A stretch of 29,933 nucleotides of DNA, from the IMG/VR virus record IMGVR_UViG_3300040815_000636, positions 1 through 29,933 of that record; one strand, given 5' to 3'. Both the position numbers and the translations under genes were made by a program. This DNA comes from a virus. The notes beneath the pieces were generated by a model that searched no databases, was not told the origin of the DNA, and saw nothing but the letters and a program-made list of their open reading frames with translations. This document shows, piece after piece, positions 3,660-29,933 of the stretch; within the stretch, counting starts at the first letter, position 1, and every line of letters starts with the position of its first letter.

Positions 3660-3677
3660 ATCTTATATTATTAAGTG

Positions 3678-6600
3678 ATGATACAGTTAGCTAATTTCGA
3701 AGAGAGGGAGTTTTACATTGACCTAGGCGAACAGATTACAGCTTGTGATTTGACCTTGGTGTATCAAATGACTGAGGAGACTTTCTTGGTGCGGTTGACC
3801 GCTGATAAAACCAATGACCGAGCTACAAAATTTAGTTATACTGCTACAAATCTTCCTGAAGGTCAATATTTAGCTTCGTTTGCTAAGGTTGACGGTACGA
3901 AATTGGTAACTGTTGCTGCTTTTGTTACGGGCAATCCGATTTTTGCAACCAGCCAGTACAACACTTATAACGACGATGGAACAAGCACTACTTATGTCCC
4001 CAGCGACGATCAAGGTTTAGTTCCAAGTGTGTCACAGCGTCTAAGGGTTAAAACTGACGACGACGCTACCGACGTTTCTTATGTGCGTACCATCAATGTA
4101 ACTAATGGCACTCTTACCGATGATGGTAATGGAGCAATTACTTTGAACACAGGCGGCGGCGCGGAGACATTAAACGAACTAACAGACGTAGACATCATCA
4201 GCCCCGACCAAGGCGATGTTCTATCGTACAACTCAGGCGTTCAGAAGTGGATGGTCAACGGGGGGCTTCAAGAGCTTCTCGCACGCTTTAAAGCAAGCGG
4301 AACAGGGGCGCAAGTATATGATACACTCAACGACACAACGAAGGGATATATCGACATCCTAGCCAATAGCGCAAAGATGAAAGTCAACCTTTCGGGATTG
4401 ACAGTGACCGAAGCCTCTCCAGGGGTTATGTCGTTCTCGGTTGCAGCGGGTACCGAAGGGAACGAAGTCGAGTTCGAGGCGATGACCATCGAAGGGAGCG
4501 ACGCTATTTCTACGGTTGCAGACATCAACTTCAAGCAAGGCTCGCTGACGTATTGGGAAAACGCAACGGGCAAGATTTGGCTTCGTGCTCCGAACGCGGG
4601 AAATCTCACCGTTTTGCTTCCAAGCTCATCGGGTACGATCGCACTCACAACCGACATCCCGAATGTACCTGTCGACTCGGTAAACGGTCAAACGGGAGTT
4701 GTTGTTTTGGATACGGGAGACATTGACGAGAACGGCAATTTATACTATACCGAGGCACGGGTTGCAGCGAATAGCGCTGTCGCAGCGAATACGGCAAAGG
4801 TTGGAGTCATTGCGGGAGGTACTACGGGACAAGCTCTCGTAAAAGCAACGGGAACGGATTACGATGTTGAGTGGGCAGACATCGCAATTGATACCCAGTA
4901 TCACAATCGCTTTCAAACAGACGCGGAGACATTCCGAAGCGGAGCAACGGATACGGTGGAGCTTTATTACACGGCTAAAGCGGACGGAGACGGACTCGCA
5001 GAGAGCGCAAGCAGCGACACCCCAACAGCGGGCAAGATTATCCGAAGGAAGATATACTATTCAGAGGCGGCGTTCGCAGATCCCGACACGGGGACTTGGG
5101 TTGAGTTCACACCTGCACCCGCAGACGATGCTTCTTTCGCTACGGTGAAAGCGGCTCTTTTGGAATACCTCAAAGCGAGGACGGGCGGCACTGTTCCAAT
5201 TAGCCTCAAGCAAACGTGGGAGGAGGTGAGCGCAACTGCGTATCTTCTCGATGAGACCTTTGGCTCAGGCGCGGAAGCAGCTTATTCAACGCGACAACTT
5301 CGCTTCGCTCAAAACGACTGCATGGTTATCCGCAGGGCATCGGATAGCACGACCACAACAATCGGCTTTGACTCCGAAGGCAACATCTCGGAGGCAGATA
5401 TTGAATCGTTCTGCACGGGTACGAGTTGCACGGTCTATCAATGGCTTGACCAATCAGGAAACGGGAACGATGCGACAGCGGCAGCACCTGCAAACGAACC
5501 GACTATCTACACGGGTGGCGCGTTGGTGAAGGAGAACGGAAAGTTGGCTTTAGATTTTGATGGCTCAAATGATTTTTTAAGTACGTCAGACGGAGTTGCA
5601 AACGAAGCAGAGTTAACAATATTTCAAACAAGTCGAGCGTTAGGAACAAATGGCGGGGTTCAAGTTGCTTATGTTTTACCTCAAGCATCTGGAAGCCATA
5701 CAGTCCCCTATGGAAGGCTGTGGTTTATGCGCAGAGGTGTTGATGATATGAACGTCAGAATAAATGGTGTGAATACTAGCTTTAACAATAAATACCCGCA
5801 AAATCAAAGTTTATTTTGTTTAAATTCGAAACAAGGCTTTGTCGATGTTAGCGGTACGAATTCAGTAAATTTCACAGGTGCAGACATAACTTATCCCAAT
5901 TCTGTACCTTTTGTAATTGGTGCAAACGGTGGCGCGTTTGAAAATTGGCGAGGCAAAAATCAAGAACTCATATTGTACCCGTCTGACAAATCAACCACAG
6001 ACCAAACGAGCATCGAAGAAAACATAGGCGACTACTTCACCCAAAACACGCCACTGCTCGACACGTACACGGGAGCAGCAGCCGCGTATTCACTGCGTAA
6101 GCTCTCGAGTTCCTACGTTGGTTCAGCGGTAGAGGTTTACAACGGGAGCAGTTACGCTGACATCGGCTTCAACGTATTCGGTGAGTTAAATACGGTTGCA
6201 CTGGCTGACCACTGTGGGTCAAACGATGGGTTTGTATCAAAGTGGTATTCGCAAACGGGAAGCAACGACGCAGTTCAAACGAACACCGCGAATATGCCGA
6301 AGATTTATGACGGGACGACGGGCGTGGTGACGGAGAACGGAAAGCCTGCTTTACAGTTTGACAGTACCGACGGCTTCGCAACGACAGACACAGTTAACGT
6401 TACGCCTTTATTTTTTGCAGCGGTTGCTCAAGGGGTTGGTCGCAGGCAAATGTTTGCAATTGACTCCTTCAATACATTTGAGGCTAATATATGGGCGTCA
6501 AGCGGCTCGCAGCTTTATAATTTATTTGTAGGTGGGGTTGATTTTAATGGCACCAAATTGAATGACGCAAGCCAACACTTATTTACGGGTTCTTACGTCA

Positions 6601-6800
6601 CGGGAGCAATTGCTGGGCACGTTGACAGCGTTTCTGACATTTCTGGAAGTTCAGCCTATACAGGTAGCGGTTCTATTACAATAGGCCAACGAAACGCAAA
6701 TCAAATGAATTGCCAAGAGATAGTTATTTGGCAGTCTAATGCAGCGAACCGCGCAGGAATTGAAACAAACCTGAACACGTTCTACAACATATACTCATGA
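3678..6800 (+). CDS. Tail fibre / receptor-binding protein with two GH54-like domains
   Basis: A 1040-residue protein. ATG 3678 is preferred over the adjacent in-frame GTG at 3675. Residues 1-110 look like a virion-attachment domain (MIQLANFEEREFYIDLG). The middle has fibre-shaft signatures, including LNELTDVDI, PVDSVNGQTGVVVLDTGDI and YYTEARVAANSAVA. Two related domains follow, at about 530-775 and 795-1040. Each begins AAYS.R.L, continues to IGF....GE/N, has W.DQSGNGNDA or WYSQTGSNDA, then an ENGKLALDFD or ENGKPALQFD strand, and ends with a helix such as TSIEENIGDYF or AGIETNLNTFY. This matches the beta-sandwich of the GH54 alpha-L-arabinofuranosidase B family as found in phage fibres. Whether it binds or cleaves glycans is unknown. 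Base composition shifts along the gene, suggesting domain exchange. Confidence 0.85.
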   Translation: MIQLANFEEREFYIDLGEQITACDLTLVYQMTEETFLVRLTADKTNDRATKFSYTATNLPEGQYLASFAKVDGTKLVTVAAFVTGNPIFATSQYNTYNDDGTSTTYVPSDDQGLVPSVSQRLRVKTDDDATDVSYVRTINVTNGTLTDDGNGAITLNTGGGAETLNELTDVDIISPDQGDVLSYNSGVQKWMVNGGLQELLARFKASGTGAQVYDTLNDTTKGYIDILANSAKMKVNLSGLTVTEASPGVMSFSVAAGTEGNEVEFEAMTIEGSDAISTVADINFKQGSLTYWENATGKIWLRAPNAGNLTVLLPSSSGTIALTTDIPNVPVDSVNGQTGVVVLDTGDIDENGNLYYTEARVAANSAVAANTAKVGVIAGGTTGQALVKATGTDYDVEWADIAIDTQYHNRFQTDAETFRSGATDTVELYYTAKADGDGLAESASSDTPTAGKIIRRKIYYSEAAFADPDTGTWVEFTPAPADDASFATVKAALLEYLKARTGGTVPISLKQTWEEVSATAYLLDETFGSGAEAAYSTRQLRFAQNDCMVIRRASDSTTTTIGFDSEGNISEADIESFCTGTSCTVYQWLDQSGNGNDATAAAPANEPTIYTGGALVKENGKLALDFDGSNDFLSTSDGVANEAELTIFQTSRALGTNGGVQVAYVLPQASGSHTVPYGRLWFMRRGVDDMNVRINGVNTSFNNKYPQNQSLFCLNSKQGFVDVSGTNSVNFTGADITYPNSVPFVIGANGGAFENWRGKNQELILYPSDKSTTDQTSIEENIGDYFTQNTPLLDTYTGAAAAYSLRKLSSSYVGSAVEVYNGSSYADIGFNVFGELNTVALADHCGSNDGFVSKWYSQTGSNDAVQTNTANMPKIYDGTTGVVTENGKPALQFDSTDGFATTDTVNVTPLFFAAVAQGVGRRQMFAIDSFNTFEANIWASSGSQLYNLFVGGVDFNGTKLNDASQHLFTGSYVTGAIAGHVDSVSDISGSSAYTGSGSITIGQRNANQMNCQEIVIWQSNAANRAGIETNLNTFYNIYS

Positions 6801-7198
6801 ACGGATATATAATCGTACTACCAACGCCCACGCAGACAAGCGAAGCACGGGCAAAGCAAATCACGCGTGAGCTTTATAACATCTCTCGACCCGTTCTCAT
6901 ACAAGCAGAGTGGGAAGTCGATTCTGCCGTGTTCGGTATCGTGGTACACCCTGACGGAGTACAGAACGCTTTGCAAGTGGACACCGAGTATCTTATAAAC
7001 GTTCACCCAGCGGCAACGCTGGAACGCCTTGTTGCGTGCTTTCCTGAGCTTTCGAATGATGAGCGGTATAGCCTCAGCAGTTACGTGCAAGTCAATAAGA
7101 AGTTCCCCTTCGGGCATATCGTGCCGAGCGATGTCACAATTCGCGATCAAGAGTACATGGTTGAGAATGGTTGGTTCCCTGAAGACCCCGAATTATGA
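6797..7198 (+). CDS. Fibre-associated protein of unknown function
   Basis: A 133-residue soluble protein coupled to the fibre gene by an ATGA overlap. It begins MNGYIIVLPTPTQTSEARAKQITRELYN, a strand followed by a helix, then VDSAVFGIVVHPDG and a strand YLINVHP. The C-terminus carries a short HIVPSD...MVENGWFPE motif. There is no membrane segment or catalytic motif. Position suggests a fibre chaperone or a small fibre-tip protein. Codon and base composition resemble the GC-richer parts of the preceding gene, so the two may travel together. Confidence 0.7.
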   Translation: MNGYIIVLPTPTQTSEARAKQITRELYNISRPVLIQAEWEVDSAVFGIVVHPDGVQNALQVDTEYLINVHPAATLERLVACFPELSNDERYSLSSYVQVNKKFPFGHIVPSDVTIRDQEYMVENGWFPEDPEL

Positions 7199-7557
7199 AA
7201 GCAATGAAAATCCTCCTCCTCTTGGTTCTCGCAATCGTAGCGATCCCCGTTGGGATTGTTTACTCGGTTGGTGAGTCTCTTTACTTTATTACCTCAGATA
7301 TTCTCAGAAGCATTTGGAGGGCTATTTACGACCTCTTTCGGGACGTGTCGATAATTGTATCGGTCACAGCGTCAAAGTTCCTCAATCGGCTTCTAATGGA
7401 TTCGGGGGTTCCTTTCGGGAATCATTCCGTTTCGGCTGTCTTGGGAGCCAACCAACGGGAGCGCACTTTGACTAACTTAGGCAAATGGCTGACAGGTATA
7501 TTAGATAGCATAGAAAGCAACCACTGTCGCAAAGCATCTGAGCGAGCAGGAATTTGA
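7195..7557 (+). CDS. Single-pass membrane protein of unknown function
   Basis: A 120-residue protein starting in an ATGA overlap with the gene before it. Residues 3-24 form a strong hydrophobic segment (ILLLLVLAIVAIPVGIVYSV) that is either a signal anchor or a signal peptide. A second, amphipathic helix follows (SILRS-like region to LYDLFRDVSIIVSV). The C-terminal third has a motif of the form SVSAVLGANQRERTLTNLGKWL, then a helix LTGILDSIESNHCRKA, which I recognise loosely from other Bacteroidota phage proteins next to tail fibres. It may help lysis or envelope interaction, but nothing in the sequence decides this. Confidence 0.65.
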   Translation: MKAMKILLLLVLAIVAIPVGIVYSVGESLYFITSDILRSIWRAIYDLFRDVSIIVSVTASKFLNRLLMDSGVPFGNHSVSAVLGANQRERTLTNLGKWLTGILDSIESNHCRKASERAGI

Positions 7558-7564
7558 ATTTAAC

Positions 7565-9319
7565 ATGAGCAAAATGAAAATGAACTTAGGTGTAATTGAT
7601 TACGCCAGATATGAGCAACCCATGTTCACCGATCAAAGTAACAAGGACTGGGTGTTTTTTGGCGAAGACAATTTGTACCCGCTATACCTAGACGACTTGT
7701 TTATTTCATCTTCCATTCACGGTGCTATTGTGACTGGTACAGCGGATATGATTTACGGTGAGGGTTTAGAATGCGACACAAAAGATGACAACGTAGAGCA
7801 ATGGCTACGGCTAAAAAGCATGTTTCGGCACGATGCCTTAAGGCGTGCGGCTTTTGATTTAAAACTTTACGGTAACGCTTATCTTAATGTAATTTGGTCA
7901 CAAGACCGAAGCACAATTAGCGAAGTACATCATGTGCCAGCAAGCACAATTCGATGCGGTAAAGCAGATGACAACGATGAGGTTAAAATATTCTACCATA
8001 GCACCAATTGGATTGAGTCGAACCAATCTAATTTTAAGCCAAATCCTATTCCTGCATTTGACGTAAACGACCGTACAGCAGCCAGTCAGATTATTCACAT
8101 AAAAGAATACAGCCCCGTATCGTTTTTCTATGGCTTACCAAGCTACAAGGGAGCTACAGCGTATTGTGAGCTAGACAAAAACATAGCTGAGTTCCATCTT
8201 TCTAACATAAAAACGGGGCTTTTTCCCAGCCTTGCAATCAGCTTCAACAGTGGTATCCCGACAGACGATGAACGTAGAGATTTAGAGCGTTTGATTTATG
8301 ATAAGTTTGGTGGTGCAAGTAATGCTGGTAAAATTCTCATGACGTTCAACGATGGTCAAGATTCAGCACCTACCATTGAGCCGTTTAATTTGCCTAACCC
8401 GCACGAAACGTATGATTTTTTAGCAAAACAAGTATTTCAAGAAATCCTATCGGGACACCGTGTAACTTCTCCATTGCTGTTCGGCCTGCGATCAGAAGGT
8501 GGTGGGTTTGGTAGCAACGCAGATGAGATGCGTGACGCATACGATTTGTACAGCAAGACTGTTGTAGAACCATTTCAGCACACTTTGTTGCATGGCATCC
8601 AACCCATACTTTCGGCAAACAATATCATTTTAGATGTCTATTTTAAGGATTTAGTGCCTGCAAGTTTTATTGAGCAAAAGGAAGAAGAAGAAAAAAAAAA
8701 AATCTTTTCCAATCAGCCAGTTCGAATCAGCGAAACCCAAAGCTCAATTTGGTTAAATCACCTGTCGGACAAGGATGCGCCACTGCCAAAAGAATTCGTG
8801 CTACTGAAGGAAGAAATAGTCAATAACACGAATGATGATCACAGACTGCACAACAAATACGAATTTGGCTTAGAAGACTATTCCAATTACGATTTAGTTT
8901 CGGAGTGGGGTGATGTCGTGAGTCCACAAGGCAATTTGTTTGCGGTACGGTATCAGTATTTTAAGGCTACAAGTCAACAACCCAAAGGCGAGAGCCGAGA
9001 TTTTTGTGTTGAAATGATGGATTTGGCAAACGCAGGTGTTCAGTACCGTTACGAAGATATTGGCAACATGAGTTCTGATGGCGTAAATGGACAATTTGCA
9101 GCGGCAGGTCAAAGTAGCTATGACATTTTTGAATGGGCTGGAGGCAAGAATTGCTACCACGGTTTTAAAAGACTTATATATGTATATGTACCTGATGGTC
9201 TTCCAGACACAGCAGATGGTCTTTATGAGGATTGGGACGCTGTTATGCGTCGAGTTGGAAACAACCCTTACGTAGTCCAGAAAGGAGAGGAGGCAATCGC
9301 ACCAATAGACAAGCAATAA
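7565..9319 (+). CDS. Portal protein with C-terminal extension domain
   Basis: A 584-residue protein. Residues 1-375 match a portal: DLFISSSIHGAIVTGTADMIYGEGL near the start, FDLKLYGNAYLNVIW, a wing region ending FYGLPSYKGA, a stem helix, and a clip/crown part VFQEILSGHRVTSPLLFGL. A 12-A run at 8691-8702 encodes the EEEEKKK linker at the end of this core. Residues 376-584 form an extra domain with SRDFCVEM near 476, YRYEDIGNMSSDGVN, YDIFEWAGGKNCYHGFKR; this Cys/His-containing domain accompanies portals and XkdF proteases in Bacteroidota phages. The portal forms the dodecameric DNA channel at the head vertex. It is unusual that the gene lies about 9 kb before the terminase genes, on the other side of the lysis and early regions. 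Confidence 0.88.
   Translation: MSKMKMNLGVIDYARYEQPMFTDQSNKDWVFFGEDNLYPLYLDDLFISSSIHGAIVTGTADMIYGEGLECDTKDDNVEQWLRLKSMFRHDALRRAAFDLKLYGNAYLNVIWSQDRSTISEVHHVPASTIRCGKADDNDEVKIFYHSTNWIESNQSNFKPNPIPAFDVNDRTAASQIIHIKEYSPVSFFYGLPSYKGATAYCELDKNIAEFHLSNIKTGLFPSLAISFNSGIPTDDERRDLERLIYDKFGGASNAGKILMTFNDGQDSAPTIEPFNLPNPHETYDFLAKQVFQEILSGHRVTSPLLFGLRSEGGGFGSNADEMRDAYDLYSKTVVEPFQHTLLHGIQPILSANNIILDVYFKDLVPASFIEQKEEEEKKKIFSNQPVRISETQSSIWLNHLSDKDAPLPKEFVLLKEEIVNNTNDDHRLHNKYEFGLEDYSNYDLVSEWGDVVSPQGNLFAVRYQYFKATSQQPKGESRDFCVEMMDLANAGVQYRYEDIGNMSSDGVNGQFAAAGQSSYDIFEWAGGKNCYHGFKRLIYVYVPDGLPDTADGLYEDWDAVMRRVGNNPYVVQKGEEAIAPIDKQ
8691..8702 (+). other. A12 homopolymer, possible slippage site in the portal gene
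   Basis: Twelve consecutive A residues lie at the boundary between the portal core and its C-terminal domain. A -1 shift (or one added A) would end translation at TAA 8824-8826. A +1 shift (or one lost A) would end at TAA 8754-8756. Either would give a short portal lacking the C-terminal domain. A runs of this length are known to promote RNA polymerase slippage; use of it here is inference. Confidence 0.45.
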
Positions 9320-9924: not shown

Positions 9925-10131
9925 ATGGACTACGATTTGATAGGTGTTGTTGTGGGGGCTTTAAGTGGCATCATTGCTACATGGGTGAAGCTCACTAACG
10001 AGGTGACAAAGATTAAGAGCCGTCTATTTTCTTTAGAAAAACAAGAAACCAAGGTGCAAGAAACTCTAGAGGTTTTAGTCAGCGGAATTAACGAAATCAA
10101 ATTGCTACTAGCTAAAAAAGGAATCGAATGA
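9925..10131 (+). CDS. Holin-like protein (XhlA-type)
   Basis: A 68-residue protein with an N-terminal hydrophobic stretch (LIGVVVGALSGIIATWV) followed by a coiled-coil-like helix with heptad spacing (VTKIKSRLFSLEKQETKVQE). This plan, with the hydrophobic segment placed N-terminally, fits small membrane proteins found next to endolysins, sometimes grouped with XhlA or haemolysin-type holins. It opens a lysis cassette: its stop overlaps the next mini-gene by ATGA, and an amidase follows. The holin function is inferred from topology and context. Confidence 0.65.
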   Translation: MDYDLIGVVVGALSGIIATWVKLTNEVTKIKSRLFSLEKQETKVQETLEVLVSGINEIKLLLAKKGIE

Positions 10132-10226
10132 AATCTCCAAGACAATACGAGGACAGTTTTCATCTTGTAAGAATCGGTTTTATTGGATTGGTTCTATGTG
10201 TAATTCTTCTGCTTTGCGAGATTTAG
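10128..10226 (+). CDS. Mini membrane protein of the lysis cassette (32 residues)
   Basis: A 32-codon frame starting in an ATGA overlap with the holin-like gene. The first 15 residues are polar (MKSPRQYEDSFHLVR) and the rest is one membrane segment (IGFIGLVLCVILLLCEI). Its last 31 bases overlap the start of the amidase gene in another frame. The coupling, the clear topology and the location favour a real gene, perhaps a small holin, antiholin or spanin-like subunit. No conserved motif supports a specific role. Confidence 0.5.
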   Translation: MKSPRQYEDSFHLVRIGFIGLVLCVILLLCEI

Positions 10227-10636
10227 ATAAAGTTATTCTGCATTGTTCAGCGACTATCGAAGGCGCGCACATTGATGTAGACACCATAAGAACATGGCAT
10301 AAGGCCAGAGGTTGGAACGACATTGGTTATCATTACGTCATTTACCGTGACGGATCAGTACACCAAGGAAGGGGTGTAGACAAAATAGGAGCGCATACCG
10401 CAAGTCAAAACAAAACATCTATTGGGGTCTGCTATGTTGGTGGTATATCGGCAAAGACAGGTAAACCAGCAGATACTATGACAGCGGAACAAGAAATGGG
10501 TTTTCTTGAATTGTGGCACGCTTTGAAAGTCTGCTTTGGGGAATTAGAATTGTATGGTCACAATGACTATTCGCGTAAGGCGTGTCCATGCTTTGATGTA
10601 AAAGAGAAGTATAAATTTTTAATAGAAGAGAAATGA
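10196..10636 (+). CDS. N-acetylmuramoyl-L-alanine amidase (endolysin, T7 lysozyme-like)
   Basis: A 146-residue Amidase_2/PGRP-domain enzyme, close to the 151 residues of T7 lysozyme. It cuts the bond between N-acetylmuramic acid and L-alanine in peptidoglycan. The zinc ligands H16 (ILHCSAT), H122 (GHNDYS) and C130 (KACPCFD) and the catalytic Y45 (GYHYVIY) and K128 are all present with T7-like spacing. There is no signal peptide, so it needs a holin to reach the wall, and a holin-like gene lies just upstream. The ATG at 10196 gives the expected distance to the first zinc ligand. T7 lysozyme also inhibits its own RNA polymerase, but no such polymerase is encoded here. Confidence 0.95.
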   Translation: MCNSSALRDLDKVILHCSATIEGAHIDVDTIRTWHKARGWNDIGYHYVIYRDGSVHQGRGVDKIGAHTASQNKTSIGVCYVGGISAKTGKPADTMTAEQEMGFLELWHALKVCFGELELYGHNDYSRKACPCFDVKEKYKFLIEEK

Positions 10637-25321: not shown

Positions 25322-25513
25322 ATGGATATTTTAGTACACGAACACTGGCGCGACGTAGAGCATGTATTGAAGCTGCACGATCTTGACGTGTATGTTTTGC
25401 ACTACAGAAGCAAAGGCATGATGGCATGTGTTGTAGAGGCTGATAGTATTATGGCAGCTCAAGACATTCTAGAGGTTATGCACGCAAACGGATTTGACGC
25501 AACACAAGTTTAA
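25322..25513 (+). CDS. Array gene 1: small His-containing protein (63 residues)
   Basis: A 63-residue protein. ATG 25322 is chosen because it lies just after the promoter; the in-frame upstream ATG at 25259 would lie across it. It reads as a helix with several His (VHEHWRDVEHVLKLH), two strands (DVYVLHY and MMACVVEA) and a helix (IMAAQDILEVMHANGF), an alpha-beta-beta-alpha order that could form a half ferredoxin-like fold. No family is assigned. It is the only array member not preceded by the repeated junction. Confidence 0.7.
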   Translation: MDILVHEHWRDVEHVLKLHDLDVYVLHYRSKGMMACVVEADSIMAAQDILEVMHANGFDATQV

Positions 25514-25524
25514 ACAACAGAGAT

Positions 25525-25752
25525 ATGGATTATGTAAGACGATTTGAACAAGCATACGATGTAAACCTTGTTGCCCGTATGTATGATTCAGGCAGAAATT
25601 ATAAACTAGCTGATATTGGAAATTTTGCACAAGATTTAGGAATTGATGTGCGGGAAGTAATGGATGCTATCTACGACATCGAAGCGGTATACAATATTGT
25701 ATTAGAAGTTGATTCATATAAAGACGTCGTTGTTAATCCATACGGCTATTAA
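25525..25752 (+). CDS. Array gene 2: small acidic helical protein (75 residues)
   Basis: A 75-residue protein, mainly helical (NYKLADIGNFAQDLGIDVRE, then VMDAIYDIEAVYNI), ending in a strand VLEVDS and a short PYGY tail. It has about twice as many Asp/Glu as Lys/Arg. The LADIGNFAQDLGIDVREVM part has the spacing of a short HTH or UBA-like three-helix unit, but no family is clear. The junction before it is ACAACAGAGAT. Confidence 0.7.
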   Translation: MDYVRRFEQAYDVNLVARMYDSGRNYKLADIGNFAQDLGIDVREVMDAIYDIEAVYNIVLEVDSYKDVVVNPYGY

Positions 25753-25763
25753 ACAAAAGAGAT

Positions 25764-26048
25764 ATGGCATACGCAAACGATAGAGCGCAAGAAGCATTTG
25801 GTGACTTCTTAGCAGATGAAACTGATTTTGAGTACATAGGTTATTTACCAAGCGAAAGGGCAAGTGCGTTTTACGTAAGCAAGTTTGCGCTTGACTATTT
25901 TATTGATGACATTAAAAGGTTTGAATTAGATGCTTTCGTTAGAGAAGAATTTCCTGAGTGGATGGAGAACGACGAGTATTATGATTTTGGCTATTGGACA
26001 GAAGACGATAACGGAGACTTTATCGTTTATGTGCAATTATTTGTTTAA
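25764..26048 (+). CDS. Array gene 3: highly acidic protein (94 residues)
   Basis: A 94-residue protein with about 24 Asp/Glu against 6 Lys/Arg, rich in Tyr and Phe. It begins helical (RAQEAFGDFLADE), has FALDYFIDDIKRFELDAFVR and ends with a strand pair around WTEDDNGDFIVYVQLFV. The charge density could mimic DNA, an idea not supported by any motif. The junction is ACAAAAGAGAT, one base different from the consensus. Confidence 0.7.
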   Translation: MAYANDRAQEAFGDFLADETDFEYIGYLPSERASAFYVSKFALDYFIDDIKRFELDAFVREEFPEWMENDEYYDFGYWTEDDNGDFIVYVQLFV

Positions 26049-26059
26049 ACAACAGAGAT

Positions 26060-26311
26060 ATGACATTAAATCAACTACAAGAAATAATTGAGGACTACGC
26101 ACCACGTGAACGCGAAGGTTACAACTATCAAAAAAACTACGACATTATTTACTGCGAATGGTGGTTGCCTTTTGATTTTCCAGAGCGAGAAATTGACGAC
26201 ATTATCGACAATATGCAAGATGAAGTGGGAACGCGCATTATCTACGACATTCGCGAAACGAAAGGTGCTACAATCGTTTTAACGTTTGACGTGTCTTTGC
26301 CTACTTACTAA
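26060..26311 (+). CDS. Array gene 4: acidic alpha/beta protein (83 residues)
   Basis: An 83-residue protein. An N-terminal helix (LNQLQEIIEDYA) leads to a strand (YDIIYCEWW), then a helix (EREIDDIIDNMQDEV) and two strands (TRIIYDIRE and ATIVLTFDV). The order helix-strand-helix-strand-strand is the clearest example of the plan shared with array genes 8 and 11, the gene at 29326 and the protease C-terminus. The preceding junction is ACAACAGAGAT. Confidence 0.7.
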   Translation: MTLNQLQEIIEDYAPREREGYNYQKNYDIIYCEWWLPFDFPEREIDDIIDNMQDEVGTRIIYDIRETKGATIVLTFDVSLPTY

Positions 26312-26322
26312 ACAACAGAGAG

Positions 26323-26472
26323 ATGAAAAAAATATCAATAGCAATAAGTGGCGCAATCTCGGAATTAGATGTTGCGATTTATGAGGCAAAAAAAGTGGGA
26401 GACACATTGCTTGCCGAAAGGTTAGAAGAAATATTTGAGGAATTGGACAGAATTGAGCGTAGCCTGTATTAA
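26323..26472 (+). CDS. Array gene 5: short helical protein (49 residues)
   Basis: The shortest member, 49 residues. It reads MKKISIAISGAISELDVAIY, then a charged helix (AERLEEIFEELDRIERSL). A two-helix hairpin or coiled coil is likely. It is supported by sitting exactly between two copies of the junction. The junction before it ends GAGAGATG instead of GAGATATG. Confidence 0.7.
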   Translation: MKKISIAISGAISELDVAIYEAKKVGDTLLAERLEEIFEELDRIERSLY

Positions 26473-26483
26473 ACAACAGAGAT

Positions 26484-26702
26484 ATGAGAGGTGAAAGTAA
26501 CGCAGACTACGAACTGAATCTAATTAAAAAACAAGCACAAGATTTAACCTCTACGCTTGAAATTTTATTAGAACACTTCTATTCTGAAGTAGATAGAGGA
26601 GCAGGCTATGACGCGGAAAACGCAGCAGAAGGCATAGAAGATTTAATTGAAGGAGTTGAGGGCATACACGACCAAGCCCAATACTATTACCGTTCATACT
26701 AA
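26484..26702 (+). CDS. Array gene 6: acidic helical protein (72 residues)
   Basis: A 72-residue, almost all-helical protein (YELNLIKKQAQDLTSTLEIL, then NAAEGIEDLIEGVEGI) that ends in an aromatic tail, QAQYYYRSY. The short Tyr-rich end recalls the RSLY end of the gene before it. No known domain. The junction before it is the consensus ACAACAGAGAT. Confidence 0.7.
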   Translation: MRGESNADYELNLIKKQAQDLTSTLEILLEHFYSEVDRGAGYDAENAAEGIEDLIEGVEGIHDQAQYYYRSY

Positions 26703-26713
26703 ACAATAGAGAT

Positions 26714-26992
26714 ATGACGCAGGAGCAATACGAAAACCATTTTCGAGACATTTTCCAATCTGATAAATATCAGGGGTTTATGGAAATGGTTTATGAAGGT
26801 GCTGTTATTGCAATGGATGAAGGCGCATACGAATTGCAATACAGAATTGAAGAGGCTGGAGGACGAAGCGAAAGAGATAAACGTGTTGCTACAAATATGG
26901 TTGAAGACCTAATACCACTAGCGGAAGACAAGTTTCCAGACTTAGTTCCTATGGTAGAAGCGTTACGATATATGATGATACGTTTAAGATAA
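26714..26992 (+). CDS. Array gene 7: acidic helical protein (92 residues)
   Basis: A 92-residue helical protein (QEQYENHFRDIFQSDKYQGF, later NMVEDLIPLAEDKFPDLVPM) with many Met. Charge is less extreme than in its neighbours, and the C-terminus is basic (RYMMIRLR). No known domain. The junction before it is ACAATAGAGAT, one base different. Confidence 0.7.
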   Translation: MTQEQYENHFRDIFQSDKYQGFMEMVYEGAVIAMDEGAYELQYRIEEAGGRSERDKRVATNMVEDLIPLAEDKFPDLVPMVEALRYMMIRLR

Positions 26993-27004
26993 AACAACAG
27001 AGAT

Positions 27005-27286
27005 ATGTATACAGAAAACGAAATTGTTGATTACGCTTATGACCTAGCGGAAGAATGGGGGAATTATTTTGATGAACAAACAATGTCTTATTCATCTAAT
27101 CGGGGGGCGGTTCTCTTTTTCTACCCTGACGTAAGAGAACTAGAAAGCGAGTTTAATTACCTCGATAATTTTACGGTGTCTTTTCCTATGGCAGAAGTAG
27201 ATGTTGATCTTGTTGAGGAAAACATTCAAACAAGAAACAGGAGTTACGGGAGGTATGAAATCATTCAGGTAAACTTACGATTCTAA
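27005..27286 (+). CDS. Array gene 8: acidic alpha/beta protein (93 residues)
   Basis: A 93-residue protein. The start MYTENEIVDYAYDLAEEWGN resembles the start of the gene at 29326 (MTYKEAVEEIAYELE). A strand (AVLFFYPD), a helix (VRELESEFNYL), further strands (FTVSFPMAEVDV) and a final strand (YEIIQVNLRF) follow, consistent with a small alpha/beta sandwich. The junction is one base longer than usual (AACAACAGAGAT). Confidence 0.7.
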   Translation: MYTENEIVDYAYDLAEEWGNYFDEQTMSYSSNRGAVLFFYPDVRELESEFNYLDNFTVSFPMAEVDVDLVEENIQTRNRSYGRYEIIQVNLRF

Positions 27287-27297
27287 ACAACAGAGAT

Positions 27298-27525
27298 ATG
27301 AAGCGATTTGACACAAAGATTTTTGTAAGTGGCTTGAGTACAGAATCAGGTTATTTTTGGGAGGAGGAATTAAGACAAGAGGGCTTTGAGGTAGTTCTTA
27401 TGCCAGATAGACATGGGCGATTTTTGGATATGGAAATTAGTGTAGAAGGAATTGACAACACTATGTACTCTATTCTTCAAGATATATTGTCTGAAATGGA
27501 ATCAGAAGGAATTGTTATTAGCTAA
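27298..27525 (+). CDS. Array gene 9: alpha/beta protein (75 residues)
   Basis: A 75-residue protein with strand TKIFVSGL, helix WEEELRQEGF, strand EVVLMPD and strand MEISVEGID, then an acidic helix (MYSILQDILSEMESEG) and a short last strand. This is a near-complete beta-alpha-beta-beta-alpha-beta order, suggesting a ferredoxin-like small domain. The junction is consensus. Confidence 0.7.
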   Translation: MKRFDTKIFVSGLSTESGYFWEEELRQEGFEVVLMPDRHGRFLDMEISVEGIDNTMYSILQDILSEMESEGIVIS

Positions 27526-27536
27526 ACAACAGAGAT

Positions 27537-27788
27537 ATGGATTTTAACCAATTAGATAATTTAATTTCTGAAATATATGAGCAAGTGCGAAACATACCTG
27601 CTCATTTGGATTGGGCAGAAGATGTTGTGTCTAAACTTGCCGATGCACTATACGATGACACACCAATGCGTATGCACTTAATTTTAAATGAGTGGAATGC
27701 ATATCGGTTTTTAACTCCTCAGTTTCTCCGTCAATTAGAAGATGCCATTGAAGATTACGCTTACACAACCAGCAACTATGGCATTTAA
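27537..27788 (+). CDS. Array gene 10: acidic helical protein (83 residues)
   Basis: An 83-residue helical protein (FNQLDNLISEIYEQVRNIPA, later FLTPQFLRQLEDAIEDYAY) ending in SNYGI. The same NYGI ending, with the same TATGGCATTTAA end of the DNA, closes the gene at 29604. The junction after this gene is longer (18 bases, CATTTAT then ACAACAGAGAT), the main exception in the array. Confidence 0.7.
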   Translation: MDFNQLDNLISEIYEQVRNIPAHLDWAEDVVSKLADALYDDTPMRMHLILNEWNAYRFLTPQFLRQLEDAIEDYAYTTSNYGI

Positions 27789-27806
27789 CATTTATACAAC
27801 AGAGAT

Positions 27807-28100
27807 ATGAGATTTCAAGATTCTGCTATACTTGATATTGAGGACATTATTGTGCGCCAAATGGACATTTACTCGATAGAAGGCAAATTAAATTTTATTT
27901 CAGGTGGTCGCATTCAAAGTTTCGAAATAGAAAATTTCCGTGTAGACCTAGATTATCAACCTGCAAATTTTGACTATTACATTCAAGACTTTACGTCAGA
28001 ACTAGGTGATGAGTTGCAGGATTATTTAAATGAGTGGTCTTATTATGACGTGCATATAGATGTAGAGCGAGGCACAATTTTTATTGAATTCACCAATTAA
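27807..28100 (+). CDS. Array gene 11: acidic beta/alpha protein (97 residues)
   Basis: A 97-residue protein, the longest of the array. A helix (ILDIEDIIVRQMD), strands (GKLNFIS, IQSFEIENFRVDLDY), a helix (ELGDELQDYLNEW) and a final strand hairpin (YDVHIDVERGTIFIEFTN) are predicted by pattern. Its end matches the helix-strand-strand end of array gene 4. It is followed by ACAACGGAGAT and then the protease start, so the protease is read as the next cassette. Confidence 0.7.
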   Translation: MRFQDSAILDIEDIIVRQMDIYSIEGKLNFISGGRIQSFEIENFRVDLDYQPANFDYYIQDFTSELGDELQDYLNEWSYYDVHIDVERGTIFIEFTN

Positions 28101-28111
28101 ACAACGGAGAT

Positions 28112-29314
28112 ATGGAGCGTAAGCTAATTGAACTACTTATTGGTGACGAGTCTGAGGTCGCGGTTGAAGCTATCAGTTTAGTAAAGCACCCAGCCATTGA
28201 GGAAAATTTTATCTTTTTCTCTAAGGAGGGTAAGAAAGACAAGTTTGTTTCTTTAGCCAGCGTAGAGGACGAAGAGAAGCGCATGCTCATTGGCCCTGCT
28301 CTAATTCCTGACAAGCACATCCCACGATACGATGAGCTTAAAGACGAAGAGTACGACGTTTACTTTTCTAAAGACACAGTAAAGCAGGCTGCTGAAATGT
28401 ACCTCAAGCAGAACCGCACCAACGATCACACTTTTGAGCATCAGGACGCAATCGACAATGTGTCTGTAGTCGAGTCATGGGTTGTTACAAATCCAGAGAT
28501 GGATAAATCAAAGCATTATGGACTAAATGTACCTGAAGGCACTTGGATGGTTCGAGTCCACGTTGCCAACGACGAGATGTGGAAGTTTGTCAAGGAGCAA
28601 GAGGTACAAGGCTTCTCGATCGAAGGTTATTTTGTAGACAAAATTGAAAACATGAGCAAACGAGCAAATCCAATTATGGACACCCTGAACGAGATTAAGA
28701 ATCTTTTGACAGGCAAGCGCAAGCTATATGCAGAGGCAAAGCTAGAAGACGGTCAGATGCTGGTTACTGACGCGGAAGAACTAGCTGCTGGAGTGGAGGT
28801 TAAGACCATTGACGAAGAAGGCCAGCCAGTAGAAATCCAAAACGGCAAGTACACCACAGAAGCAGGTGTAGAGCTTGAGGTATTTTCAGGCGTTCTGACG
28901 GAGTATAACGGAGAAGTAAAGGCTACGGAAGAGAAGGTAGACGAAGAGGTAAAGAAGGAGGAGTTAAGCCGAAAAAAAACGCACGTTAAACACCGTCTAG
29001 CTTTAAGAAAAATGGTAATGGAAAAATACGGCAACATGGCTGAGTTGCGAAAACTAGGTCGTCAAGAAATGCGGACGTTGACACATGAGCTGGTGGTCTT
29101 TTTTGAGAATCCAGACCCTACATCATCTCGTGCTGACGAATTACTTGAATTTTGCGAACGTGTAGTTGATCCGCGCGGCAACATTGAGATTGTTACCGTT
29201 GGCTACGTAAATAGCTATGAGGTAGAAATATTGTTCTACAACGCTAATAATACTGCGGTAGAAGAAGTTGAGGCGGCTTTATATCGTGCAGGTTACAACG
29301 TAGAATACGCATAA
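28112..29314 (+). CDS. Prohead protease (XkdF-like) with extra C-terminal array-type domain
   Basis: A 400-residue protein. Residues 1-175 match the XkdF-type phage serine protease: AISLVKHPAIEENFIFFSK at the start, MLIGPALIPDKHIPR, then NDHTFEH (H106 and H110) and GFSIEGYF (S169), the probable catalytic His and Ser. Residues 180-290 are an acidic, scaffold-like part (GQPVEIQNGKYTTEAGVELE) usual in Bacteroidota homologues. Residues 292-400 are not usual: helices, then IEIVTVGYVNSYEVEILFYN and a helix (VEEVEAALYRAGY), similar in plan to the small array proteins. An A8 run at 28972-28979 sits at the boundary. The protease matures capsid and scaffold; its gene uses the array junction as its start. 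Confidence 0.8.
   Translation: MERKLIELLIGDESEVAVEAISLVKHPAIEENFIFFSKEGKKDKFVSLASVEDEEKRMLIGPALIPDKHIPRYDELKDEEYDVYFSKDTVKQAAEMYLKQNRTNDHTFEHQDAIDNVSVVESWVVTNPEMDKSKHYGLNVPEGTWMVRVHVANDEMWKFVKEQEVQGFSIEGYFVDKIENMSKRANPIMDTLNEIKNLLTGKRKLYAEAKLEDGQMLVTDAEELAAGVEVKTIDEEGQPVEIQNGKYTTEAGVELEVFSGVLTEYNGEVKATEEKVDEEVKKEELSRKKTHVKHRLALRKMVMEKYGNMAELRKLGRQEMRTLTHELVVFFENPDPTSSRADELLEFCERVVDPRGNIEIVTVGYVNSYEVEILFYNANNTAVEEVEAALYRAGYNVEYA
28972..28979 (+). other. A8 run between protease core and C-terminal domain
   Basis: Eight A residues encode the KK of SRKKTH. A -1 shift here ends at TAA 28987-28989 after about three codons. A +1 shift ends at TAG 28998-29000 after about six codons. An in-frame ATG at 29012 could start the downstream domain separately. 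Slippage would produce a protease of normal size. Confidence 0.4.
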
Positions 29315-29325
29315 ATAGACAAAAC

Positions 29326-29604
29326 ATGACTTACAAAGAAGCAGTCGAAGAAATAGCTTACGAATTAGAGGTAGGCATGAATTGCAAACTAGGAAAAATA
29401 TCTAGCAGCGGCAATCATTTTGTAATTGATGTCGAAGATCCAAACGGTTTTCCTCCAGCGGATTTTGAAGACATGGCTTATGATGGGCTAGAGTATTTGT
29501 TAGAAGAAAAGGCTCACAGCACCTTTGTGAGCGTAGGGTGGGATGTTCTGTCAGGTGAAGTAGTACAGGTATCCATAACCTTTGAATCCTCTTTACGTCG
29601 GTAA
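29326..29604 (+). CDS. Small acidic alpha/beta protein related in plan to the array (92 residues)
   Basis: A 92-residue protein after an 11-base gap of different sequence (ATAGACAAAAC). It starts MTYKEAVEEIAYELE, has a strand (NHFVIDVED), a helix (FEDMAYDGLEYLLEE) and two strands (FVSVGWDV and VVQVSITFES), the same order as array genes 4 and 8. It is probably an array relative located after the protease. The next gene starts on its stop codon (TAATG). Confidence 0.7.
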   Translation: MTYKEAVEEIAYELEVGMNCKLGKISSSGNHFVIDVEDPNGFPPADFEDMAYDGLEYLLEEKAHSTFVSVGWDVLSGEVVQVSITFESSLRR

Positions 29605-29858
29605 TGTGGGATAGAATCTACGATATATGGATTGGTGACGAGGACGCAGAGCTTCGCAATATGATTGACGAGTTTCGAATGGACTATGTTCTGAATCGAA
29701 AGTTCATGGTTGCTTTAGACCTCATCGAGTCGGCTGTAGCCAACTGGGATTACACAGAGGCTGAAACTTTATTTCAGGAGTATGCACCAGCAGAAATGGA
29801 CTACTATGACAAAAGACTTTTTACAACACTTTTAAGAGACGCTAATTATGGCATTTAA
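29604..29858 (+). CDS. Small acidic helical protein (84 residues)
   Basis: An 84-residue all-helical protein (AELRNMIDEFRMDYVLNRKF, then AVANWDYTEAETLFQEYAPA), rich in Asp, Glu and Tyr, ending LRDANYGI. The TATGGCATTTAA end holds the ATG of the next head gene (29848), an 11-base overlap. Its ending is shared with array gene 10, so the two may be distant paralogues. It may be a small head component or array relative; no family is recognised. Confidence 0.68.
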   Translation: MWDRIYDIWIGDEDAELRNMIDEFRMDYVLNRKFMVALDLIESAVANWDYTEAETLFQEYAPAEMDYYDKRLFTTLLRDANYGI

Positions 29859-29933
29859 ATTTTTTGACGAATTAACAGCGGCAGCGGGCTTTCAAGATTT
29901 GCCTGAGCCTATGATCCTGCACAACCCAGATAC
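29848..29933 (+). CDS. Head-associated structural protein (start; continues at base 2 of the window)
   Basis: This is the N-terminal part of the 270-residue protein described for 1-778. ATG 29848 lies inside the last codons of the preceding gene. The first residues are MAFKFFDELTAAAGFQDLPE. Reading across the closure adds 17 residues before the in-frame TTG at 17, so the gene is not truncated in the real molecule. Confidence 0.85.
   Translation, partial: MAFKFFDELTAAAGFQDLPEPMILHNPD
29883..29933. repeat. Terminal direct repeat, right copy (circular closure)
   Basis: Matches 1-51 except C29916 in place of T34. The change is silent, so it is a real variant in the sequenced population or a sequencing error; it does not argue against circularity. 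Confidence 0.93.

Follow-up and report, generated by a model that had tools for sequence, protein, structure and literature searches.

In bacteriophages T4 and P1, the head contains anti-restriction proteins that are processed by the prohead protease, and the proteases T4 gp21 and phiKZ gp175 also undergo cleavage close to their own C terminus (PMC9026906, PMC12810830, PMC12373910). In T4, IPI-IPIII are variable small accessory proteins tied to head assembly that undergo prohead protease processing, are injected with the DNA and block restriction enzymes (PMC9026906, PMC12373910). The anti-restriction Dar proteins of P1 are likewise head components that the prohead protease cleaves (PMC12810830). 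In polyvalent proteins, anti-restriction domains including ArdA are fused to other proteins travelling with the invading DNA, some of which have a protease domain (PMC5512222).

Here, we describe a capsid protease gene in the window, i.e. the whole 29,933-base stretch of viral DNA in record IMGVR_UViG_3300040815_000636. Its product shares with XkdF (PF14550) proteases a profile-matching core, conserved His and Ser residues, and an acidic region followed by a helical tail, but it has an appended small acidic domain (cassette X), and relatives have other domains at the same place. Whereas the T4 IPs are basic products of separate genes and bear an N-terminal capsid targeting peptide, these domains are acidic and fused to the C terminus of the protease, and their packaging is putative. 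The P1 Dar proteins are not fused to a protease, and no sequence relation between them and the window was seen. Polyvalent proteins are large multidomain effectors with metallopeptidase domains, unlike the structural capsid protease plus one cassette found here; they are recognized by two or more effector domains, and only the protease and X were seen in the window protein. ArdA (PF07275) occupies the same slot behind the protease in relatives, but X is not ArdA and the window is without an ArdA-like gene. A literature search found no paper describing a fusion to the capsid protease, which does not prove that none exists.

The protease gene and cassette X

The window has a terminal repeat of 51 bases (1-51 and 29883-29933, one mismatch) and is thus a circularly assembled tailed-phage genome. 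In agreement with the first-pass annotation, a single frame at 28112-29314 encodes a protease core (PF14550) and additional array-type C-terminal sequence. The PF14550 Peptidase_S78_2 (XkdF) match covers residues 50-173 (E 8e-18) and scores 65.1 bits, above the Pfam gathering cut-off of 24 bits, and the PHROG matches are head maturation protease families. The candidate catalytic residues H110 (TFEH) and S169 (GFSIEGYF) are invariant in nine aligned relatives. Scaffold-like and capsid genes follow downstream, across the circular joint. Elsewhere in the window, a tail-region protein of 1041 aa (3675-6800) matches an alpha-L-arabinofuranosidase B catalytic domain (PF09206, E 9e-12) and is a candidate receptor or glycan-binding module. 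The features of the locus are as follows.

25511-28114, plus strand: array of about ten small acidic ORFs upstream of the protease (pI 4.1-5.0), with 11 copies of the junction TAAACAACAGAGATATG
28112-29314, plus strand: XkdF-type capsid maturation protease with C-terminal cassette X, a single open frame of 400 aa
28112-28970, plus strand: protease core and acidic linker, 94% identical overall to relative L001, with 100% identity across the core columns from which the tree was built
28971-29065, plus strand: conserved basic helical protease tail (pI 9.1), from the nine-protease alignment; an exchanged allele here
28972-28979, plus strand: A8 run in the tail codons R-K-K-T (CGA AAA AAA ACG), which coincides with the left border of the exchanged module
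28987-28989, plus strand: TAA of the -1 frame within the V-K-H codons (GTT-AAA-CAC); the same GTTAAACA codons occur in L012
29012-29014, plus strand: ATG encoding the tail-helix Met (LRKMVMEKYG), no conserved start in the nine-protease alignment
29069-29314, plus strand: cassette X, 81 aa, net charge -10, pI 4.2, own start Met in frame; stand-alone homologues 49-75% identical
29326-29604, plus strand: MTYKEAVEE, a small acidic cassette that follows X in L012 and L013 as well
29604-29858, plus strand: conserved ORF MWDRIYDIWIGDED, closing the exchanged module as judged by comparison with relatives
about 28975-29603, plus strand: exchanged module of about 630 bp (tail allele, X and MTYKEAVEE), replacing the tail and ArdA of L001, L002, L004 and L006

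The 11 copies of the array junction compare with a chance mean of 0.14. Among relatives, the 11-base spacing is exact in 76 of 148 small-ORF junctions. Array cassettes also change position, with window 27522-27809 being 96% identical to L004 8711-9007.

Searching viral contigs for relatives of the protease yielded 12 other loci, and an alignment-based search yielded 80. The protease had been proposed to end near residue 290, with a domain boundary at the A8 run. Instead, a tail with the motif SRKKxxxKHRxxLxxMVxxKYGxLxxLKxLG is kept in frame in ten relatives, which stop at about residue 315-320. The same motif is found in the window tail, SRKKTHVKHRLALRKMVMEKYGNMAELRKLGR, which reads in frame before and after A8 and stops close to residue 317. 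Because the conserved tail continues through A8 to about this residue, the run lies inside a helix. In line with this, an AlphaFold model of the 400-aa protein (pLDDT 62 overall) shows helices at 283-306 and 309-318 and a separate domain from 323, so that the first helix crosses A8 (residues 287-289). The true junction between protease and X is at 29066-29069, about 90 bp downstream of A8, and contains no homopolymer. The array-type unit is accordingly about 81 aa (29069-29314), not the approximately 108 residues first assigned to it. The A8 run, the -1 frame reading AAC GCA CGT TAA, the TAAACA that begins with this stop and the ATG at 29012 are all present as originally reported, yet TAAACA and the ATG are ordinary codons of the conserved tail helix rather than cassette signals.

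Other endings exist among related proteases. Thirteen of them (L031, L033, L034, L036-L038, L040-L042, L047-L049 and L057) have another terminal module of about 42 aa (YPWDECIADQMKRYGNKETAEKICGSIKAKYG), and in a more distant group of proteases (L083-L095) the first half closes with a similar motif. The L003 protease gene (1295-2239) is intact apart from an in-frame TAG following VQGF, possibly a sequencing error.

Cassette X runs from the ATG at 29069 (MRTLTHELVVFFENPDPT...YNVEYA). A single-query scan for homologues found none, and an alignment query found six loci. X is a stand-alone ORF in four other lineages (L004, L012, L013 and L015-17). One additional ORF separates it from the preceding protease in L013 (700-942) and L012 (11234-11473). 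The L004 copy (9995-10237) belongs to the array upstream of the protease and follows an array junction, and that of L015-17 (6995-7237) sits in an array located downstream of a protease with only 53% identity. Synonymous sites are saturated among these homologues whereas dN is 0.18-0.5, which indicates that X is a conserved protein. When modelled alone, X is predicted to form a beta-alpha-beta-beta-alpha-beta, ferredoxin-like fold (pLDDT 80), for which Foldseek returns generic ferredoxin-like folds at E about 1e-3 (ribosomal protein S6 permutants, designed proteins, ACT and PII-like domains). We considered whether X is a relative of a known anti-defence protein and rejected this, having obtained no Pfam, PHROG or PADLOC match. 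Pfam gave no ArdA (PF07275) match in the fusion protein containing X, and an ArdA profile built from the relatives had no match anywhere in the window.

Cassette exchange and fusion behind the protease

The window fusion has a close unfused counterpart. In L001, whose protease core is identical to that of the window at the protein level in the tree columns, the protease stop is overlapped by the ATG of an ArdA gene. BLASTN matches between the window and L001 are restricted to 28108-28974 (96.3%) and 29604-29933 (98%), with none at 28975-29603, and matches to L001-L006 stop at 28974-28977. Considering that DNA identity to L001 is present on both flanks and lost between them, the exchanged module occupies the place of L001's tail and ArdA. 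The left edge of the swap falls in the A8 region, which is probably why A8 seemed a boundary. In L012 and L013, the order is protease, YEQWGEG ORF, X and MTYKEAVEE; the window is without the stop and the YEQWGEG ORF that part protease from X in these relatives, and X follows in frame behind the tail.

This comparison with relatives, which the first-pass annotation had suggested, found X separate in L004, L012, L013 and L015-17 and fused in the window. Its idea of a separate cassette fused by a one-base change is thus right about the fusion and wrong about the mechanism, since tail and cassette were swapped as a module and the junction is not at A8. As these homologues show, X was an independent cassette before it became part of the protease frame in the window. 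A search by junction pattern found no other fused copy and no donor carrying exactly the window's junction.

Fusion at this position is recurrent. In a comparison set of 59 protease rows, 48 of them distinct, seven small acidic cassette families are fused at the protease C terminus in eight lineages, as follows.

Window: X
L044/L045 and, separately, L065: ArdA
L052: DUF7249 protein
L069-L071: YEQWGEG family
L032/L075: a family that is free in L040, L041 and L031
L073: a family that is free in the arrays of L001 and L068
L064: a family without a known free copy

Six of the seven families have free homologues in other relatives. ArdA is free at the slot in most relatives, and both its states are recognized by Pfam (E 3e-12 free, 4.5e-11 and 3.3e-8 fused; 47.8 bits in L004, 44.0 in L044 and 34.7 in L065 against a gathering score of 27). 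DUF7249 was similarly confirmed by Pfam in free and fused copies. Parsimony on the protease tree requires at least seven changes of fusion state, four of which are forced by well supported branches. None of 148 distinct cassette-cassette junctions is fused, as against eight of 48 proteases (Fisher p 8e-6), a comparison in which both control and baseline are rough. Six of the eight lineages (window, L032/75, L052, L064, L069-71 and L073) retain the cassette's start Met in frame where it joins the protease. L064 and L069-71 have one tail and junction in common and different cassettes, as if a slot that was fused already had exchanged its cassettes at the start codon. In L069-L071, the fused YEQ domain has a dN of 0.04 and a dS of 0.18-0.20 (dN/dS about 0.2), indicating that it has been kept under selection after fusion; the corresponding values for the core are about 0.005-0.007 and 0.25-0.27.

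Some candidates were discarded. What seemed an N-terminal fusion in L061 comes from reading the tail gene out of frame, several fusions flagged by an automated screen are instead split portal or protease frames, and a 210-aa ORF from a Rhizobium phage, recorded as 'DNA methyltransferase/prohead protease', is not long enough to reveal a fusion. No fusion was seen in cultured phages, where only distant proteases were found (Nonlabens phage P12024S/L, 36% identity).

Taken together, and at the level of sequence comparison, these findings show an exchange slot with recurrent fusion and conserved acidic cassettes, ArdA among them.

Possible roles of the fused cassettes

Our favoured reading, which we rate at slightly less than even, is that the 3' end of the protease gene is an exchange slot for small acidic anti-restriction-type cassettes that fusion may bring into the prohead. 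A capsid protease is built into the prohead, and hence a C-terminal partner would be carried inside, riding along as the protease enters. The domain would then survive maturation cleavage or be freed by it, and would be ejected with the DNA, where a protein of anti-restriction type could be useful at once. The in-frame start Met of the cassette may in addition yield a free copy by internal initiation; in the window, fused and free X could both be made in this way from the ATG at 29069, not by slippage. The complete scheme, in which the protease C terminus would be a modular cargo dock with interchangeable anti-restriction-type cassettes, exchange at start codons, carriage into the prohead as fusions and delivery with the DNA, is put forward tentatively. 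Several points count against carriage as cargo. X is without detectable homology to a known anti-restriction protein. The cassettes are separate in most relatives, so fusion is not required. Known from one sequence and lacking a fused sister, the window fusion is hence perhaps young. Moreover, the protease may destroy its own C-terminal domain at maturation.

The main rival, which we regard as a real possibility, is that the fusions are neutral. Rapid gain and loss of cassettes behind the protease gene would occasionally remove an in-frame stop, and the disordered linker and helical tail would tolerate the added domain, which would work, if at all, as before, once freed by proteolysis or by internal initiation at 29069. 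Indeed, cassettes behind the protease turn over fast even between proteases that are more than 90% identical, genes there overlap by 4-8 bases or sit 1 base apart, most fusions retain the cassette start Met, and the window fusion is unique and recent. Neutrality accounts less readily for the concentration of fusions at the protease, with none seen between cassettes, and for purifying selection on the fused domain of L069-71, although the latter is also expected if the domain is active only once freed.

It is unlikely that the C-terminal domain instead acts on the protease or scaffold, e.g. on protease incorporation, timing or capsid size. Such a role would fit the opposite character of the basic tail (pI 9.1) and the acidic appended domain (pI 4.2), and the protease does work at prohead assembly. 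However, this position is occupied by proteins that differ widely in fold and family, ArdA and DUF7249 among them, many relatives are without any appended domain, and AlphaFold shows no confident contact between core and X (pTM 0.42).

A programmed -1 frameshift or transcriptional slippage at A8, making both a short protease and the fusion as originally suggested, is very improbable. The elements that invite this reading are an in-frame A_AAA_AAA heptamer (28972-28978), an SD-like AGGAGG 10 nt upstream (28956-28961) and a -1 stop three codons on. However, at the same residues, relatives sharing the tail have no A8 (CGC AAG CAG in L001, CGC AAG AAG in L002, CGT AAA AAG in L006, CGA AAG AAA in L009), and no conservation of the slippery site was found among L001, L002, L006, L009, L012 and L013. 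AGGAGG is conserved KKEE coding, present also in relatives without a slippery run, and the short product would stop within the conserved helix. RNA folding downstream of A8 does not stand out (z -0.66, 42 of 200 shuffles equally good). Comparable in-frame heptamers number nearly 50 genome-wide, many with a -1 stop within four codons, and the run is not enriched over shuffles (10 matching positions against 6.4 +/- 3.5, approximately chance). Slippage at A8 is therefore unsupported, the run consisting of ordinary tail codons.

The portal gene offers a contrast. In the window (7565-9319), it has an A12 run at 8691-8702, and A10-A12 runs are found in the portal gene of 16 other loci (L004, L009, L017, L043, L051, L055, L056, L062, L065, L078, L079, L082, L083, L089, L091 and L093). 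Of 18 runs of at least ten A in 827 kb, 17 fall in 48 kb of portal sequence, and in L043 and L065 the portal frame is broken at an A10 run and needs one additional A for full length. The portal run looks like a real transcriptional-slippage or frameshift site, a far better one than A8 in the protease.

An assembly or sequencing error, by which the true sequence would have a stop or another A-run length and a protease separate from X, is hardly credible: the window is one metagenomic record, but the conserved tail is in frame on either side of A8, the junction is without a homopolymer and independent fusions of the same kind occur in relatives.

Possible meaning for phage anti-defence genes

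The interest of the locus is the recurrent fusion of cassettes, an anti-restriction protein included, at the capsid protease. The known head-packaged anti-restriction proteins of T4 and P1 are encoded by separate genes, and fusion to the protease, if it does serve carriage into the prohead, would be a different loading route. If so, arrays of unnamed small acidic phage genes would likely have an early anti-defence role, and genes fused to, or overlapping, the capsid protease would offer a rule for finding anti-defence candidates. Should the fusions prove neutral, the slot would still merit mining as a point of exchange.
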